From the IMG/VR virus record IMGVR_UViG_3300005253_001115, positions 202,641-266,640 of that record: DNA of 64,000 nt; one strand, given 5' to 3'. A program made the position numbers and the translations under genes. Source of the DNA: a virus. The notes beneath the pieces are model-generated. The model was not told where the DNA came from and ran no database searches. It worked only from the letters and a program-made list of their open reading frames with translations. Positions 24,088 to 58,864 of the stretch are shown one piece after another; the stretch's first letter is position 1; the number at the start of each line of letters is the position of its first letter.

Positions 24088-24954
24088 TTATGCTCCTCTG
24101 GTGTTGAAGACATCAGTGTATCCTCGTTTTTTAGCGAGCTTCAAGAGCTTAGGTCCGTAGAGAGGCCAACCATCTTTGTTGTTCTTTTTCTTCTCTCTCA
24201 TAGTAGAGAGCTTATTTCCTAGGGACTTCTCTACATGATCCTTAGAGACAGTGCTAGGAGCCCTGTCTTCGTGAGAATTCATCCACAGGAAAAGCTCTTC
24301 AGCCCATTCTAGAGCTTCACGGGTTAGATCGACCCTATTGAAAACAGCAGGGTAACCCCGTTTCTTAGCAAGCTTCATGAGCTTAGAACCATAGATAAGC
24401 CAGCCTCTTTTGTTGTTCTTTTTGATGTCTCTCATAGTAGAGAGTTTGCTTCCGAGAGCTTTCTCTACTGTGTCTTTAGACACAGCGCTAGGAGTCTTAC
24501 TTTCGTGAGAATCCATCCACTCGAAAAGTTCTTCGGCCCGGGCCATAGCTACCTTGGTAAGATCGGTTCTGTTGAAGACATCAAGATAACCACGTTTTTT
24601 AGAGAGCTTTAGAAGCTCTGATCCGTAGATAGGCCAGCCCTCTTTGTTGTTCTTCTTGTTGGTTCTCATCTTAGAAAGCTTTCTACCTAGAACCTTTTCT
24701 GTCCGGTCTTTGGATTTCTGACTAGGAATCTTGCCTCCGTGGGAATCCATAAAGGAGAAAAGAGTTTTGGCCCACTCTATCGCTGAAGCAGTAAGATCCC
24801 CATCAGAGTCAGACAAGAACCACGCCAAGTCTTCGGCGTTTCTTTCCCAATACACCATGTCTTCGGGTCTATGTGAAGACGGCAAGCCTTTGTCGTACCT
24901 GTGTCTCTGGTTCCTAAGGTACACGGCGTAGTTGTCGTATGCTTCAGTGTTCAT
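24088..24954 (-). CDS. Helicase-associated-like repeat protein, 3 repeats
   Basis: 288 aa. A 50-residue head (RNQRHRYDKGLPSSHRPED...) is followed by three repeats of about 78 residues. Each runs as a helix with WM(D/N)SH, a P, KD..EK.LG.KLS.MR, KKNN, GW..YG..L.KL.KKRGY and VFN. The spacing W..SH(G)..P...LG..LS..R...L...G resembles helicase-associated (HA) domains, which are thought to bind nucleic acid. It is the last of three paralogous genes downstream of an SF2 helicase. Function is inferred only. Confidence 0.78.
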   Translation of the reverse strand: MNTEAYDNYAVYLRNQRHRYDKGLPSSHRPEDMVYWERNAEDLAWFLSDSDGDLTASAIEWAKTLFSFMDSHGGKIPSQKSKDRTEKVLGRKLSKMRTNKKNNKEGWPIYGSELLKLSKKRGYLDVFNRTDLTKVAMARAEELFEWMDSHESKTPSAVSKDTVEKALGSKLSTMRDIKKNNKRGWLIYGSKLMKLAKKRGYPAVFNRVDLTREALEWAEELFLWMNSHEDRAPSTVSKDHVEKSLGNKLSTMREKKKNNKDGWPLYGPKLLKLAKKRGYTDVFNTRGA

Positions 24955-25826
24955 CTGGAGCCTCTGGTGTTGAAGACACGGGGATAACCACGTTGCTTAG
25001 CAAGCTTCAACAGTTTTGCACCGTAGGTGGTCCAACCATCTTTGTTGTTCTTTTTTCTTCTTTTCATATTAGAAAGCTTAGTTCCTAGAACCTTTTCTAC
25101 TGGGTCTGTAGACATCTGGCTGGGAGCCTTTCCACCGTGGGAATCCATCCAATCAAAAATCTCACCAGCTCCCTTTAGGGCTTCACTGTTTAGATCAATA
25201 GTGTCAAAGACATCTTGGTAACCACGTTTCTTAGCGAGCTTCAAGAGCTTAGGTCCGTAGAGTTTCCAACCACCCCTGTTGTTCTTTTTCTTCCTTCTCA
25301 TGTCGGAGAGCTTACTTCCTAGAGCTTTTTCTACCGGGTCTTTAGAAGACATTCTAGGAGTTTTTTCGTCGTGAGAGTCCATCCAACCGAAAAGCTCTTT
25401 TGCCCACTCTAGAGCTTCTCTGGTTAGATCTGTGGTGTTGAAGACATCAGGGTAACCACGTTTCTTAGCGAGCGTCAGAAGCTCTGATCCGTAGGTAGTA
25501 GTCCAACCACCCCTGTTGTTCTTTTTGTTATGTCTCCAATATGACAGCTTAGTTCCTAGAACCTTTTCTACTTGGTCTATAGACCCCTGGGTGGGAGCCT
25601 TTCCGCCGTGGGAATCCATCCAATCAAAAACCTCACCAGCTCCCCTTAGAGCTGAGGTAACAAGTCCCACGTCAGTGTCGGACAAGAACCACGCCAAGTC
25701 CTCAGGATTCCTTTCCCAGTACACTATGTCTTCTGGTTTGTGCGAAGACGGCAAGCCGTTGTCATACCGGCGTCTCTGGTTCCTCAAGTGTAGAGCATAG
25801 TTGTCGTATTTGTCGGAGGCTAGCAT
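24951..25826 (-). CDS. Helicase-associated-like repeat protein, 3 repeats
   Basis: 291 aa. Same head and repeat as its neighbours, with three 78-residue repeats. The first has an extra Thr before YGSELL. The final repeat ends FNTRGSR, close to the tail of the gene downstream, showing recent duplication. It overlaps both neighbours by 4-7 bp, so the three genes are co-translated. Confidence 0.78.
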   Translation of the reverse strand: MLASDKYDNYALHLRNQRRRYDNGLPSSHKPEDIVYWERNPEDLAWFLSDTDVGLVTSALRGAGEVFDWMDSHGGKAPTQGSIDQVEKVLGTKLSYWRHNKKNNRGGWTTTYGSELLTLAKKRGYPDVFNTTDLTREALEWAKELFGWMDSHDEKTPRMSSKDPVEKALGSKLSDMRRKKKNNRGGWKLYGPKLLKLAKKRGYQDVFDTIDLNSEALKGAGEIFDWMDSHGGKAPSQMSTDPVEKVLGTKLSNMKRRKKNNKDGWTTYGAKLLKLAKQRGYPRVFNTRGSR

Positions 25827-27178
25827 TTGGAGCCTCCGGTATTGAAGACACAGGGGTAACCTCGTTGCTTGGCGAGCTTCAGAAGCTTAGAACCGTAGGT
25901 GGTCCAACCATTTTTGTTGTTCTTTTTGTTCTTTCTCATATTGGAGAGCTTAATCCCTAAAGCCTTTTCTACTGGGTCTTTGGACCTCCTGCTAGGAAAT
26001 TTCTCTTCGTGAGCATACATCCAATCGAAAAGTTCGTCAGCCCACTCTAGAGCCTCGCTGGTTAGATCAACCCTGTTGAAGACACGGGGGTAACCACGTT
26101 TCTTAGCAAGCTTCAAGAGCTTAGAGCCGTAGGTAGTCCAGCCATCTTTGTTGTTCTTTTTGTTCTTTCTCATATTGGAGAGCTTACTGATAAGAGCTTT
26201 TTCCACTGGATCTTTGGACCTTTCCTTAGGAACTTTGCCTCCATGGGAAGCCATCCAATCAAAAAGCTCCTCTGCCCATATTAGAGCCTCGCTGGTTAGA
26301 TCAACCCTGTTGAAGACACGGGGGTAACCACGTTTCTTAGCAAGCTTCAAGAGCTTAGAACCATAGGTAGTCCATCCTCTATCGTTATTCTTTTTGATCT
26401 GTTTCATAGCGGAGAGCTTGACCCCTAAAGACTTTTCTACAGGGTCTTTAGCCGTCGTAATTGGAGCTTTACCTTCGTGCGAGTCCATCCAAAGGAAAAG
26501 CTCTTCAGCCCACTCTAGAGCGTTATAGGTTAGATCAGCCATGTTGAAAACATCAGGATAATCACGTTTCTTAGCAAGCTTCAGAAGCTCTGATCCGTAG
26601 ATGGGCCAGCCTCTATTGTTGCTCATTTGATTCTGCCTCATAGTAGAAAGCTTACTACCTAGAGATTTTTCTATAAGATCTTTGGACTTCTTGCTAGGAA
26701 GCTTGTCCTCGTGCGAGTCCATCCAAAGGAAAAGCTCTTCAGCCCACTCTAGAGTTTCGCTGATGGGGTCACGACTATTGAAAACATCAGGATAACCCCG
26801 CTTCTTAGCGCTCTTTAAGAGGCTGGAACCGTAGGTAGTCCAACCATTTTTGTTGCTTTTTTTATCTTGTTTCGTATTGGAGAGCTTACTACCTAGAGCT
26901 TTTTCTACAGGGTCTTTGCTTCCATCGCGGGGAGCCTTGCCCTCGTTAGAGTCCATCCAAAGGAAAAGCTCTTCAGCCCGCTCTAGAGCTGAAGCGGTAA
27001 GGTCCCCACTAGAGTCAGACAAGAACCATGCTAGGTCTTCGGCGTTTCTTTCCCAGTACACGATGTCTTCGGGTATGTGAGAAGATGGCAAGCCATTTTC
27101 GTACCTGACACGCTCGTTGCGCAGGAACTTAGCCTTGGCGTCGAAAAAGTCTTCCTTGCTCTTCTCAGTCCTACGCAT
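25820..27178 (-). CDS. Helicase-associated-like repeat protein, 5 repeats
   Basis: 452 aa with the same head and five 78-residue repeats. Repeats 4 and 5 are nearly identical to each other at the DNA level around the KNKKNNK and YPRVFNRVD segments. The gene overlaps the helicase stop by 8 bp. HA-type repeats are often fused to helicases; here they are separate but adjacent. The array may wrap DNA or RNA for the helicase. Confidence 0.78.
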   Translation of the reverse strand: MRRTEKSKEDFFDAKAKFLRNERVRYENGLPSSHIPEDIVYWERNAEDLAWFLSDSSGDLTASALERAEELFLWMDSNEGKAPRDGSKDPVEKALGSKLSNTKQDKKSNKNGWTTYGSSLLKSAKKRGYPDVFNSRDPISETLEWAEELFLWMDSHEDKLPSKKSKDLIEKSLGSKLSTMRQNQMSNNRGWPIYGSELLKLAKKRDYPDVFNMADLTYNALEWAEELFLWMDSHEGKAPITTAKDPVEKSLGVKLSAMKQIKKNNDRGWTTYGSKLLKLAKKRGYPRVFNRVDLTSEALIWAEELFDWMASHGGKVPKERSKDPVEKALISKLSNMRKNKKNNKDGWTTYGSKLLKLAKKRGYPRVFNRVDLTSEALEWADELFDWMYAHEEKFPSRRSKDPVEKALGIKLSNMRKNKKNNKNGWTTYGSKLLKLAKQRGYPCVFNTGGSKC

Positions 27179-29057
27179 TGGAGGGCCTTATTCTCTTACG
27201 GTCCCAGAACTCATCACGCCAGTCCTTGCAAATTTCGTAGAACTTCTTCAACTCTTTCTCTGAAAAGCTTCCGTAGTGTGTGGTCTTGTCCTTATCAATC
27301 CTCTCGAACAACACCTCACCGTATTTCTTCAAGAACTCAGCAAGCTCTTTGTAGCAGGCCACACGGATCTTCTTGGCACCGAACAAATTCAAGAGCTTGA
27401 GCTTGAAATGGTCGGCAGCATGCTGCATGTGCTCCTCTGGGGTGTTGTATTGCACCAAGAGCTTCTCGATAAACAGGACTATATGCTCCATGTCCGTCAG
27501 ACCCTCGGGCTTCGGGGCACATCTATACTCTTCCAGAACAGCCCCCAGAAGCCTCTGGTACACCTCATGACCGTACATATCCTCGATTGTAGTGGCGTCG
27601 GGATCGCTCTCGCCCCGAGCTGACTTAGTTTTCATCGAAGGCAGCATACAAGGGTACGCCAAATTATCAACAATCAGGAAGAACAGCAGAATACGAGTAC
27701 GGTGCCCCAGAAGCTCCGCTCGGCTAGAGCAGCCTTTAGGGATTACGAACTTGGGAATGTAAGCCACGTACTTGACTGTAGTCTTTCCGTGAAACGATCG
27801 GAACATTCGACCCATCGTCTGGATGTTGTTCGTAATGGACTTCTTGGGAGCCGACTCGTGAATACGGTCGCAAATGACCCAATCTGTACCCTCACGCACG
27901 ATGTCGCAAGCAACCACGATGTCGAAAGCGTGCGCGTCCCCTCGCTGGAGAGCTTCGTTGTCCTCCAGCAAAAGGTGCTTGTTAAAGTCTCGTTCGGATG
28001 CTGACAACCCTTCTCTGATTACCAGATCACAAATTCGCCCAGGCTTTAGAGCCTTGAGCCCTTTGATTAGCTTTCGCAGTAGCTTTTCTCCCTTGGCACC
28101 CTTCCTCCACGCTTCTCCCGTTCGCGGACAAGGCAGCAGGTGATATCTGTTAGGCTCCTGTGCTACAGCGTCAAGCATCATCTGCACAGGGTCTCTATTG
28201 TACTCCGTGTATTCCATCTTGAATGATCGAATACCCAAAGTCTTCCAGTTGTCCAGCCATTTGTGTTCGTACACCGTGAACTGTACGTCGTCCGGGAAGA
28301 TCTTCTGGCAATCCCCACGAAACGGAGTAGCAGTGCTGTAGCAGACCTTGTACGACTTGCACCGGCTAGCGAACAAAAACCGATAGAATCGCCCCAGACC
28401 GTTAATGTCTGATTCGTCAGAAGAGGCAATGTGGTGCATTTCGTCGGGGCGGAATGTGGTGTTCTTGGGGATGCTATTGAGGCGCGCTCTTGCGGCCTTT
28501 CGCTCAGCCGCGCTCCCTTCCAGGGTCCGTGCCACCAATCTGTCGAACACAGCAACCAGTAGCGCATTTGAACATACTGCCACGAGCCCCCTGAAGCTGT
28601 CAGGGTCCTTACATGCTCCACGCTTTGCGGCGGACGTAAGGCACATCCAGTGCTCCAGAGCGTCCATCTTGGACTCTAAAGAGGAAAAGTCTCGCGTGAA
28701 GTTCTCGCTGTCGCTCACCATGTATTTGTATACTGGACCATCAACATCAAATTGGAAGTCTTGCTTCTTGACGAAGCCGAAGCCAATGTGCAGTTGGGGG
28801 ACTGGGATCAACTGGGCTTGGGTGAAGTTACTATCCACCATGTCTAGAATTGACATGAAGATCTGAAATGTGGTCTTACCACATCCGCAGGGTGCAATTA
28901 TCCCACACAAGCGGCAGCCATGCAGAGCTTCAACGCCCATTCGCTGCCATTCGCGAGGCCAACGCTTCTTCATGTATTCGGAGAAAGAGGGGAGTGGAGG
29001 CTTGTGCAGTTTCCAGTCCGGGTTGTCCAGAGCAACTGTAGCGAGATTCTTTGGCAT
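27171..29057 (-). CDS. SF2 helicase (DEAD/DEAH-like)
   Basis: 628 aa. Motif I APCGCGKTT (55-63), motif II as PDEMHH, motif III YSTATPF, motif V ACDIVREGTDW and motif VI QTMGRMFRSF are all present, as in restriction-type or UvsW-like SF2 helicases. The C-terminal 200 residues are helical without a known nuclease. It is preceded by a sigma-28-like promoter with the ATG 7 nt after the -10, and followed by three HA-like repeat genes. It probably remodels DNA; a defence or anti-defence role is possible. Confidence 0.85.
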   Translation of the reverse strand: MPKNLATVALDNPDWKLHKPPLPSFSEYMKKRWPREWQRMGVEALHGCRLCGIIAPCGCGKTTFQIFMSILDMVDSNFTQAQLIPVPQLHIGFGFVKKQDFQFDVDGPVYKYMVSDSENFTRDFSSLESKMDALEHWMCLTSAAKRGACKDPDSFRGLVAVCSNALLVAVFDRLVARTLEGSAAERKAARARLNSIPKNTTFRPDEMHHIASSDESDINGLGRFYRFLFASRCKSYKVCYSTATPFRGDCQKIFPDDVQFTVYEHKWLDNWKTLGIRSFKMEYTEYNRDPVQMMLDAVAQEPNRYHLLPCPRTGEAWRKGAKGEKLLRKLIKGLKALKPGRICDLVIREGLSASERDFNKHLLLEDNEALQRGDAHAFDIVVACDIVREGTDWVICDRIHESAPKKSITNNIQTMGRMFRSFHGKTTVKYVAYIPKFVIPKGCSSRAELLGHRTRILLFFLIVDNLAYPCMLPSMKTKSARGESDPDATTIEDMYGHEVYQRLLGAVLEEYRCAPKPEGLTDMEHIVLFIEKLLVQYNTPEEHMQHAADHFKLKLLNLFGAKKIRVACYKELAEFLKKYGEVLFERIDKDKTTHYGSFSEKELKKFYEICKDWRDEFWDRKRIRPSNA

Positions 29058-54268: not shown

Positions 54269-54691
54269 CTATTTCGAGAACTGTGCGCGCCAATACTTGT
54301 TCATCAAGCCACGGCGCACACGGCTGTTACAGTGCTCATCAGAGTGAGTCTCATGGAGGTTCAGGTCGGCCCCATGAACCTCACGCATGAACGAACCTAC
54401 CGCAACTGACCGGCTTACGCCAGCGCTACAGTGGATCATGAAGTCACTCTCGATGTAGCTCTCGATGAACTCATGCAGGATCTCAGCATGTTCGATCGAG
54501 AACGCAATGATGTTGTGCCCTGTCATGCCTGTGGGGATCTTCACAACGTCATCGAACTCGATGCGCAGAATGTCGTCCCAACCCTCTTTCAACTCGTAGC
54601 TTTCCCCGGGGCTACCGATGGAAATCACCACTGTCCTGGGACGTGGCTCGATCTCGGCCGCATGGTACTTGCTGTAAACGTCCACCCTCAT
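54269..54691 (-). CDS. Tyrosine/dual-specificity phosphatase-like protein
   Basis: 140 aa. HCSAGVSRS at residues 87-95 is the Cx5R active-site loop of protein tyrosine phosphatases, preceded by a strand and followed by a helix as in the fold. A general-acid Asp is likely in the FDDVVKIP segment. It could act on host phosphoproteins or on phosphorylated nucleotides or RNA. Coupled by a 4-bp overlap to the L7/L12-like gene upstream. Confidence 0.8.
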   Translation of the reverse strand: MRVDVYSKYHAAEIEPRPRTVVISIGSPGESYELKEGWDDILRIEFDDVVKIPTGMTGHNIIAFSIEHAEILHEFIESYIESDFMIHCSAGVSRSVAVGSFMREVHGADLNLHETHSDEHCNSRVRRGLMNKYWRAQFSK

Positions 54692-55298: not shown

Positions 55299-55805
55299 TT
55301 AACGTGCCCTCTCATGTGCCAGAAGCGCCTTTGTAACCTTCGCCATGGCCGGAATGTACCGCTCCAGAGCTAATCGAATGTGATGCTCCGTCCGTCCCGG
55401 CTTCGGTGCAGCGTTCCGCTGAATGTCGGCCAGTTTGACGACGGTGGTGTCCCGATCGAGAATCGCCCGATCGAGAAACTCGTTGTAGGTTTCTTTGCCG
55501 AAGTAGTGCCGGGTCAACCCCGTCAGAATCTCATGGACCCGAACGAGGTCATGCTTCTCAAGGAACAGGGAGATCCGGCTCTCACTCTGTGGGTGGTCCT
55601 CCATCGCGTCGTGGAGAATCGCGGCAACCTGAACTTCGATCGACTCGTCCTGCTCCTGTACCGTCTTGAGAACCTGAAGTAGGTGGAAGATGTAGGGACC
55701 ACCACCGTAAAGGTCATCCTTGTGGATGTCGGCGGCGAGTGCGATTGCCTTTCCTAGTACCTTGTCCGTCGTAAAGCGCTTTACTAAAGCTAGTACCTTC
55801 GTCAT
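55299..55805 (-). CDS. HD-domain hydrolase, SpoT/MESH1-like
   Basis: 168 aa. YIFHLLQVL, AAILHDAMEDH (HD motif) and VVKLADIQRN follow the order of the (p)ppGpp hydrolase domain of RelA/SpoT and stand-alone MESH1. Length fits a single-domain hydrolase. It may lower the alarmone level during infection, or act on NADPH as reported for MESH1. A promoter-like element lies upstream. Confidence 0.8.
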   Translation of the reverse strand: MTKVLALVKRFTTDKVLGKAIALAADIHKDDLYGGGPYIFHLLQVLKTVQEQDESIEVQVAAILHDAMEDHPQSESRISLFLEKHDLVRVHEILTGLTRHYFGKETYNEFLDRAILDRDTTVVKLADIQRNAAPKPGRTEHHIRLALERYIPAMAKVTKALLAHERAR

Positions 55806-57133: not shown

Positions 57134-57367
57134 CTACTGTGGCTTTAGGATAGCCTCGCCGTGGGTCGCGAACGCTTCGGCCTGCTTCTGGAACCAGAAG
57201 TCCTCTTCCATCTCGTGGACCTCGGCTTTGAGGTCGTCCATGTAGGCTTGCGTCATCGGCACGAGATTACCGGACTCGTTTCGGACCATCACTCCGAACT
57301 CGCCGAAGTCCTCACGCTGGAGGGGTCGAAAGGCGTCTTGAATCATGCTGAGTAGTCTGCGCATCAC
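57134..57367 (-). CDS. Hypothetical small protein
   Basis: 77 aa; MMRRLLSMIQDAF start, acidic helix in the C-terminal half. ATGA overlap with the gene upstream. No family is recognised. Confidence 0.58.
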   Translation of the reverse strand: MMRRLLSMIQDAFRPLQREDFGEFGVMVRNESGNLVPMTQAYMDDLKAEVHEMEEDFWFQKQAEAFATHGEAILKPQ

Positions 57368-57801
57368 CAGACCTCTACGAGAGCATCGGAGGGCATCTTC
57401 GGCACTGCGATCCGAGCGTCTTCGGCAAGGTCATCTGCCACGGCGCTCGACTCGATCATGTTGAGAATGATGTCCCTGACCGAAAGCTCGAACACGCGAG
57501 ATACTGCGTCCCCGAGAATGTCGTAGTCACCACGATGCACCTCGTCGGTACTCTCGGGATCATCGAACGTAGCATGGAAGGGCACGACCGTGAACACCTG
57601 CCACTTCGGACCGCGAACCTCGCGCCCGCCCATACCAAAGCGCAGCGTGCCGTCTGTTTCGATCAGCAGGTTGATGCCCAGACCGGGCAGGTTGACCAGA
57701 AACTCGGTGTCGGACTTCTGCTCGACCTCGATGGTGCTCGTCATGCCCAGCGTCTTGATGCCTGCTTCGAGGAACTTGATTGTCTGCTTTACGCTTTCCA
57801 T
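57364..57801 (-). CDS. Hypothetical protein
   Basis: 145 aa. An N-terminal helix, beta-rich centre (GINLLIETDGTLRFGMGG) and acidic helical C-terminus. Ribosome site AAGGGAG. A sigma-28-like promoter lies upstream with a short leader. No family is recognised. Confidence 0.6.
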   Translation of the reverse strand: MESVKQTIKFLEAGIKTLGMTSTIEVEQKSDTEFLVNLPGLGINLLIETDGTLRFGMGGREVRGPKWQVFTVVPFHATFDDPESTDEVHRGDYDILGDAVSRVFELSVRDIILNMIESSAVADDLAEDARIAVPKMPSDALVEVW

Positions 57802-57824
57802 TTTGCTTGCTCCCTTTCCTTTAT

Positions 57825-57851
57825 GTATCGGACACTTGGTCAGGATCTTGA
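57825..57851 (-). promoter_or_regulatory. Sigma-28-like promoter with leader
   Basis: Minus strand: TCAAGATC - 11 nt - TCCGATAC, with the ATG at 57801 23 nt downstream. The -35 overlaps the last codons of the upstream gene. Confidence 0.55.
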
Positions 57852-58316
57852 GGCTTTCTTAGCCTTTTGTGCCCGGATCGCTCCCCGTCTATTCGTCATT
57901 TCTCGGCCCGTGCCGTCGGTCTGCACCCCACCGGTTCGCTCATGCTTCGGGACGTAGTTGTCTACGAGTTTCTGCAACTCGTCATGGAAGTGGTCGCCAC
58001 GCCACGCTATATCGGCGTTCCCTTCACGGAGATCTTGCACACGAAGGACCGCCACGCACGCCTCGACAGTGGAGAACTCGTCACTGTCATCTGCGGGGTT
58101 ATCGGGCTCCCGGGGAAAGAATGTAGCAACGAAGCGGAAACCGGCAATTGTAGTGATTTCGGCATCGTCGTGCCCCACGAACAAAATCGTCCAGAATCCA
58201 CGCCCGCTTACTCCGTTTCGGTGGTAACTCATGTCGAGCACCTCACCCACGAGCCTGCCAGATTTCGGGATGCGCTTAGCCAATTTCGACTCGATTTCGG
58301 CCACCGTTTTTGGCAA
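57840..58316 (-). CDS. Hypothetical protein with RRxAIxAQK tail
   Basis: 158 aa if started at the TTG at 58316 (GAGG site), which keeps the GRLVGEVLDMSYHRNG strand whole; an ATG at 58232 with GAGGTG is the alternative. Beta-rich body (GFWTILFVGHDD, AGFRFVATFFP), then TNRRGAIRAQKAKKASRS, the shared tail. It overlaps the GGDEF gene end. Function unknown. Confidence 0.58.
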   Translation of the reverse strand: MPKTVAEIESKLAKRIPKSGRLVGEVLDMSYHRNGVSGRGFWTILFVGHDDAEITTIAGFRFVATFFPREPDNPADDSDEFSTVEACVAVLRVQDLREGNADIAWRGDHFHDELQKLVDNYVPKHERTGGVQTDGTGREMTNRRGAIRAQKAKKASRS

Positions 58317-58830
58317 CGTAAAGAGCCTCGTCTGCCCGCTTGGCGAGCTTTTCGGCTGTATCCCTAATGCGGGCCATTGCGACACCGACGCTCACTGTAA
58401 CAGCAGGGTCGTCGCTCTGGTGGCTATCCTCGATGGAGGACCGGATCTTCTCTGCGAGAAGGGAAGCGCCCCGATAACTGGTAACAGCGACCACCGACAT
58501 CTCTTCGCCACCTTGCCGGAAGGCCGCATCTCCACCCCGGATAACTTGCTGGATAACTGCGGCGACGCGCATTAGGACCGCATCCCCTACACCGTGCCCG
58601 TGGGTATCGTTTACCCTTTTGAAATGGTCAATGTCTATGGCAACGAAGGTTAGGTCGGTCTGTTGCCGATCGGCCTGAGACAGTGCTCGGCCCAGGTACT
58701 CGTTGAGCCCACGACGATTGCCGAGCCCCGTAAGCTCATCCAGGGTCGCCAGCTTCTCAAGGTGGCCGATGCGTTGATACGCCGCACCTAGCTCGAATTC
58801 GAGGTCTCTGATTGTATCACTCTCACTCAT
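58276..58830 (-). CDS. GGDEF-domain protein with GGEEM signature
   Basis: 184 aa. Almost the whole protein is one GGDEF domain: DELTGLGNRRGL, then DIDHFKRVND, and the active-site loop RQGGEEMSVV at 106-114, where the final aromatic of GGDEF/GGEEF is Met. Short N-terminal coiled coil. It might make cyclic di-GMP or a related signal, or be an inactive GTP binder. Sigma-28-like promoter with the ATG 7 nt downstream. Confidence 0.85.
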   Translation of the reverse strand: MSESDTIRDLEFELGAAYQRIGHLEKLATLDELTGLGNRRGLNEYLGRALSQADRQQTDLTFVAIDIDHFKRVNDTHGHGVGDAVLMRVAAVIQQVIRGGDAAFRQGGEEMSVVAVTSYRGASLLAEKIRSSIEDSHQSDDPAVTVSVGVAMARIRDTAEKLAKRADEALYVAKNGGRNRVEIG

Positions 58831-58837
58831 ACTTTAT

Positions 58838-58864
58838 GTATCGGCGGCACCCTGGGAAACTTGA
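58838..58864 (-). promoter_or_regulatory. Sigma-28-like promoter
   Basis: Minus strand: TCAAGTTT - 11 nt - GCCGATAC, then 7 nt to the ATG at 58830; no ribosome site in between. Confidence 0.68.

Follow-up and report, generated by a model that had tools for sequence, protein, structure and literature searches.

A predicted sensor-less diguanylate cyclase encoded by a virus placed distantly among PaBG-like jumbo phages

The final 64 kb of a 266,640-bp virus contig from IMG/VR (64,000 nucleotides, the whole stretch analysed here and referred to as the window) encode, at 58276-58830 on the minus strand, a stand-alone 184-aa protein composed of a coiled-coil helix and a GGDEF domain. Its sequence supports a phage enzyme resembling the diguanylate cyclases, with which bacteria make the signal cyclic di-GMP, and its catalytic residues are all kept. 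It is fairly probable that this protein works as a cytosolic, sensor-less and constitutively active c-di-GMP synthase, limited by its inhibitory site (I-site) and acting on host receptors, and through it the virus may raise c-di-GMP in the host. The always-on anatomy, predicted from sequence and model, is the most interesting feature of the cyclase. Small, probably soluble, sensor-less and predicted to be constitutive, the enzyme offers a direct test case for the rewiring of the host by jumbo phages through c-di-GMP; if constitutive, it would also be a natural example of the coiled-coil register rule described for enzymes under the control of light or Rec domains and for engineered GCN4 fusions. 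A search of the open-access full-text literature (PMC only) retrieved no study on phage diguanylate cyclase function.

The open reading frame matched the GGDEF profile PF00990 over its entire length (positions 1-161 of 161, E 2.7e-41), and the match was not attributable to chance, since it reached 141 bits against a Pfam cut-off of 23.8 bits. The best phmmer match was the GGDEF domain of WspR/GCN4-WspR (3i5c, E 3.2e-31). An earlier sequence-only reading had located a phage GGDEF protein at precisely this position, which was confirmed by the ORF check of the window, and had proposed a comparison with CBASS enzymes, to which no relation was seen: Pfam gave no CD-NTase domain in the cyclase, only GGDEF and a sub-threshold match to the Cas10 palm. 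This was the only GGDEF gene in the whole 266,640-bp record. The terminase of the phage, with ~31-35% identity to those of PaBG-like jumbo phages, places it putatively, and distantly, among them. A promoter/terminator scan yielded nothing exceeding chance. One 13-mer, CCGATACATAAAG, had only two exact copies in the window (57819-57831 and 58832-58844, minus strand), which preceded the gene at 57364-57801 and the cyclase, and possibly represents a shared promoter or leader.

The AlphaFold2 model of the cyclase (pLDDT 97.3, pTM 0.88; 62-row alignment as input) showed the GGDEF fold, which was retrieved by Foldseek with E 1e-19. The best architecture match was the coiled coil plus GGDEF domain of Caulobacter DgcB (6ttr, TM 0.88-0.93); PadC, GCN4-WspR (3i5c) and PleD were also matched. 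Among the viral folds of BFVD, Bacillus phage G gp350 was the top match, together with the SP-15 diguanylate cyclase. No sensor domain was found in the cyclase, a 28-residue N-terminal helix standing before the GGDEF domain. DSSP on the model delimited this dimerisation-type helix to residues 3-28 (58747-58824, minus strand), preceding the DxLT wide turn (D31ELT), and its core positions (I7, L14, I21 and A28; L10, A17 and L24) corresponded to the “stimulating” coiled-coil register.

The helix ahead of DxLT can pack in two alternative registers in cyclases under sensor control; the stimulating “a” positions of IsPadC are S505, N512, N519 and A526, and S505V/A526V is constitutively active (PMC6005682). 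Aligned with the cyclase, and with the IsPadC numbering anchored by the structure of the A526V variant (6et7), these positions lie at D-24, -17, -10 and -3 from the DxLT Asp. The phage protein had a mean Kyte-Doolittle hydropathy of 3.65 at the stimulating positions (I7 to A28) vs. -1.23 at the inhibiting ones (T6, E13, R20 and L27). The corresponding means in 76 cellular homologues were 0.29 and 0.36, the expected “slippery” pattern, and a bias as strong as that of the phage cyclase was present in one of the 76. Helix shuffling gave a p value of 0.014; this test was post hoc and concerned a single short helix. The same lean was observed in the short IMG/VR GGDEF proteins L031 and L098, and was absent in L058 and L089. 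GCN4-GGDEF and register-stabilised sensor-less cc-GGDEF proteins are constitutively active (PMC12805367, PMC8041772); Ms-ccGGDEF, a natural sensor-less construct, gained activity only after stabilisation of its register (PMC12805367). The lack of a sensor, the stimulating register and these published constructs lead us to predict, post hoc and from one helix, a constitutive enzyme limited by its expression and by its I-site.

Residue conservation was scored by aligning 62 GGDEF sequences drawn from bacterial and viral contigs. All the invariant columns were kept in the cyclase: D31; D66, D68, K71, N74, H79 and D83, within the metal- and guanine-binding segment DIDHFKRVNDTHGHGVGD (residues 66-83; 58582-58635, minus strand); and R105, G107, G108, E110, D167 and K174. 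The DELTGLGN stretch of the DxLT wide turn (residues 31-38; 58717-58740, minus strand) was followed by R39, and L33, T34, N38 and R39 were near-invariant positions. The GG[D/E]E core (G107 G108 E109 E110) and the GGRN of the KNGGRN motif were also present. The RGGD I-site (residues 98-101; 58528-58539, minus strand) conserved R98 and D101 of the RxxD motif, each found in 61 of the 62 sequences. The metal/GTP residues D66, K71, N74, D83, E110, K174 and R178 were all in place, and we take them to be the counterparts of PleD D327, K332, N335, D344, E371, K442 and R446; the guanine-reading Asn74 and Asp83 were those of the canonical c-di-GMP type (PleD N335/D344). The alignment, the AlphaFold2 model and Foldseek agreed with the previous description of intact catalytic residues and an intact DELTGLGNR motif (DELTGLGNRR in the translated frame).

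The RQGGEEM active-site hairpin (residues 105-111; 58498-58518, minus strand; beta-hairpin E102-107/E110-115 in the model) departed from the consensus on both sides of the core. The replacement of the final Phe by Met, already pointed out from the sequence as GGEEM, was read in the ORF (Met111, in place of the consensus Phe/Tyr), and Gln106, just before GG, occupied a position at which most aligned sequences have an aromatic residue (Tyr, Trp or Phe). Met was present at the fifth loop position in 3 of the 62 alignment rows. In 160 sampled homologues, picked by the DxDxFK pattern, this position was Phe in 76 of the 80 viral sequences (Met in 2, Leu in 1, Ile in 1) and in 78 of the 80 genome sequences (Leu in 2); GGEEM was also found in the record of the Microcystis phage MaAM05, and GGEEI in MT835869. 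Judging from these frequencies, Met111 is a minor, uncommon but natural variant. Phe or Tyr at this position is a consensus rather than a strict feature of the family, and Met111 does not by itself settle membership. Gln106 and Met111, both flanking the GGEE core, could reduce activity; no evidence was found linking either of them to product specificity.

These two residues, atypical beside the loop core, would suit a weak or dead GGDEF domain whose role is to bind GTP or c-di-GMP, as a receptor of the host's c-di-GMP or as its decoy or sponge. Binding of c-di-GMP would be possible through the intact I-site, and cyclic-nucleotide sponges are a known phage strategy (PMC12657218). Such a role is nonetheless unlikely, given that all catalytic residues were retained in the 62-sequence alignment and that Met, Leu or Ile are found at the fifth loop position of other GGDEF proteins. 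Degenerate GGDEF receptors typically lose residues of the GGDEF loop or of the metal site, whereas GGEE, D66 and K174 were retained here, and the pattern of catalytic loop/metal loss with a conserved I-site was not seen. The non-standard loop is also the sole point in favour of a promiscuous Hypr-type enzyme producing 3',3'-cGAMP or another dinucleotide, which is very improbable: Hypr enzymes making cGAMP carry a Ser in place of the canonical base-reading Asp (PMC6456294), and the cyclase has Asp83; Asn74 was kept, as was Arg39, a residue proposed to read the guanine of the partner subunit and reported to be unconserved in promiscuous enzymes (PMC8041772). The suggestion that the protein, and in particular its Met, might point to a different cyclic dinucleotide thus found no support, Asn74, Asp83 and Arg39 being of the GTP-specific type and Met, Leu or Ile standing at the fifth loop position of other GGDEF proteins as well.

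The gene might alternatively be a passenger of bacterial origin, little expressed and without benefit to the phage. No GGDEF was found in PaBG, NCTB, AD1, Tunturi_5 and GR7B, nor in three partial IMG/VR relatives, which are fragments and hence weak evidence; the cyclase gene is considered accessory because of its absence from these best-matching named relatives and partial records. The viral GGDEFs were as scattered among the bacterial ones in the tree as shuffled labels (20 viral/cellular label changes vs. 18.9), and for this reason repeated independent captures appear more likely than a single phage lineage; with 38 of the 61 branches open, neither host nor donor was given by the tree. The nearest sampled homologues had at most 47% identity, so no donor can be named, and so the gene is not a recent copy of any sampled gene. 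The passenger explanation is quite unlikely considering, in addition, that the reading frame was intact (no stop codons), with a codon-model score comparable to those of adjacent phage genes, and that the protein was trimmed to coiled coil and catalytic domain, a short architecture shared by L031, L071 and L098. The best reading of the cyclase is that it may alter host signalling.

Viral contigs were scanned with the cyclase and with three of its neighbours, one protein at a time, which gave no close relative and none with the same neighbourhood, and a DNA search of three terminase relatives was empty. Terminase-like genes were present in 5 of the 13 GGDEF-bearing viral contigs checked, and some of the homologue-bearing contigs may come from a prophage or from a host. 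MaAM05 (L016, MW495066.1) was dropped as phage evidence because the genes around its GGDEF gene (kdgA, pgi, icd and hemW) look bacterial, which also makes the “complete phage genome” label of this record doubtful; vB_EcoS-683R6 was dropped as a host DgcM region.

Phage GGDEF proteins were already known, one gene being present in SP-15 and one in phage G, and the cyclase adds a member to this experimentally unexplored kind; the rarity previously attributed to such enzymes holds in that they are uncommon in true phages (10 BFVD matches with E<=0.001), but these precedents exist. SP15_150 of SP-15 (A0A127AWB9) is likewise a stand-alone GGDEF protein (183 aa) of a >200-kb phage, with 33-35% identity to the cyclase and canonical GGEEF and DIDHFK motifs, but its N-terminus is hydrophobic and probably anchors it in the membrane, whereas the cyclase has a soluble heptad helix there; unlike the cyclase, SP15_150 also sits in a carbohydrate-gene cluster (PMC5977210). 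Phage G gp350 (G3MA91) is also a single-GGDEF-domain protein from a giant phage, but it is larger (254 aa) and extends further on its N-terminal side, has a GGDEF loop and shares about 30% identity with the cyclase. Caulobacter DgcB shares the fold and the helix-GGDEF order, but is a bacterial enzyme with 32% identity. In GCN4-WspR a coiled coil ahead of GGDEF drives constitutive activity (PMC8041772); natural WspR has a Rec sensor, whereas the phage cyclase has none and its zipper is native rather than fused. L031, L071 and L098 also have a short N-terminal helix and GGDEF, but with identities of at most about 45%, separate positions in the tree and GGEEF/GGDEF loops.

As a constitutive synthase, the cyclase would form a dimer via its N-terminal coiled coil; the register of the hydrophobic core would hold both GGDEF active sites face to face and thereby keep the enzyme on whenever expressed. 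Two GTP would be converted to 3',3'-cyclic di-GMP, with the intact RxxD I-site capping synthesis through product feedback. The expected targets of the product are host receptors, because no EAL or PilZ proteins were found in the phage record and no Rfam families, c-di-GMP riboswitches included, in the 64-kb window. The infected host would most likely be pushed to a high-c-di-GMP state, with less flagellar motility and altered surface polysaccharide and pili, and the phage might benefit from the retention of cells or from blocking the adsorption of further phages.

An HD-domain protein similar to the small hydrolases of (p)ppGpp/(p)ppApp (55299-55805, minus strand; 7smg, E 6.6e-6; RelA/SpoT family, 8.7e-7; phrog_990, 1.6e-20) was encoded 2.5 kb downstream of the cyclase on the same strand. 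Small alarmone hydrolases have already been proposed as jumbo-phage counter-defence (PMC7824862). A functional link between both proteins is speculation, and it is doubtful that an always-on cyclase and an alarmone hydrolase-like protein jointly override two guanine second messengers of the host, raising c-di-GMP and lowering (p)ppGpp, and change its lifestyle or surface in the course of infection. Other genes nearby encoded a phage protein carrying the C-terminal domain of ribosomal protein L7/L12 (54688-55143, minus strand; PF00542, 1.1e-13) and a protein whose CSAGVSRS loop resembles those of tyrosine/dual-specificity phosphatases (54269-54691, minus strand; weak DSPc match, phrog_5614). 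Elsewhere in the window, three adjoining ORFs (24088-27178, minus strand) consisted of many ~65-aa repeats (ALEWAEELFLWMDSHEGKAP...LGSKLSNMRKNKKNN...YGSKLLKLAKKRGYP.VFN) and adjoined a helicase-like ORF (27171-29057).
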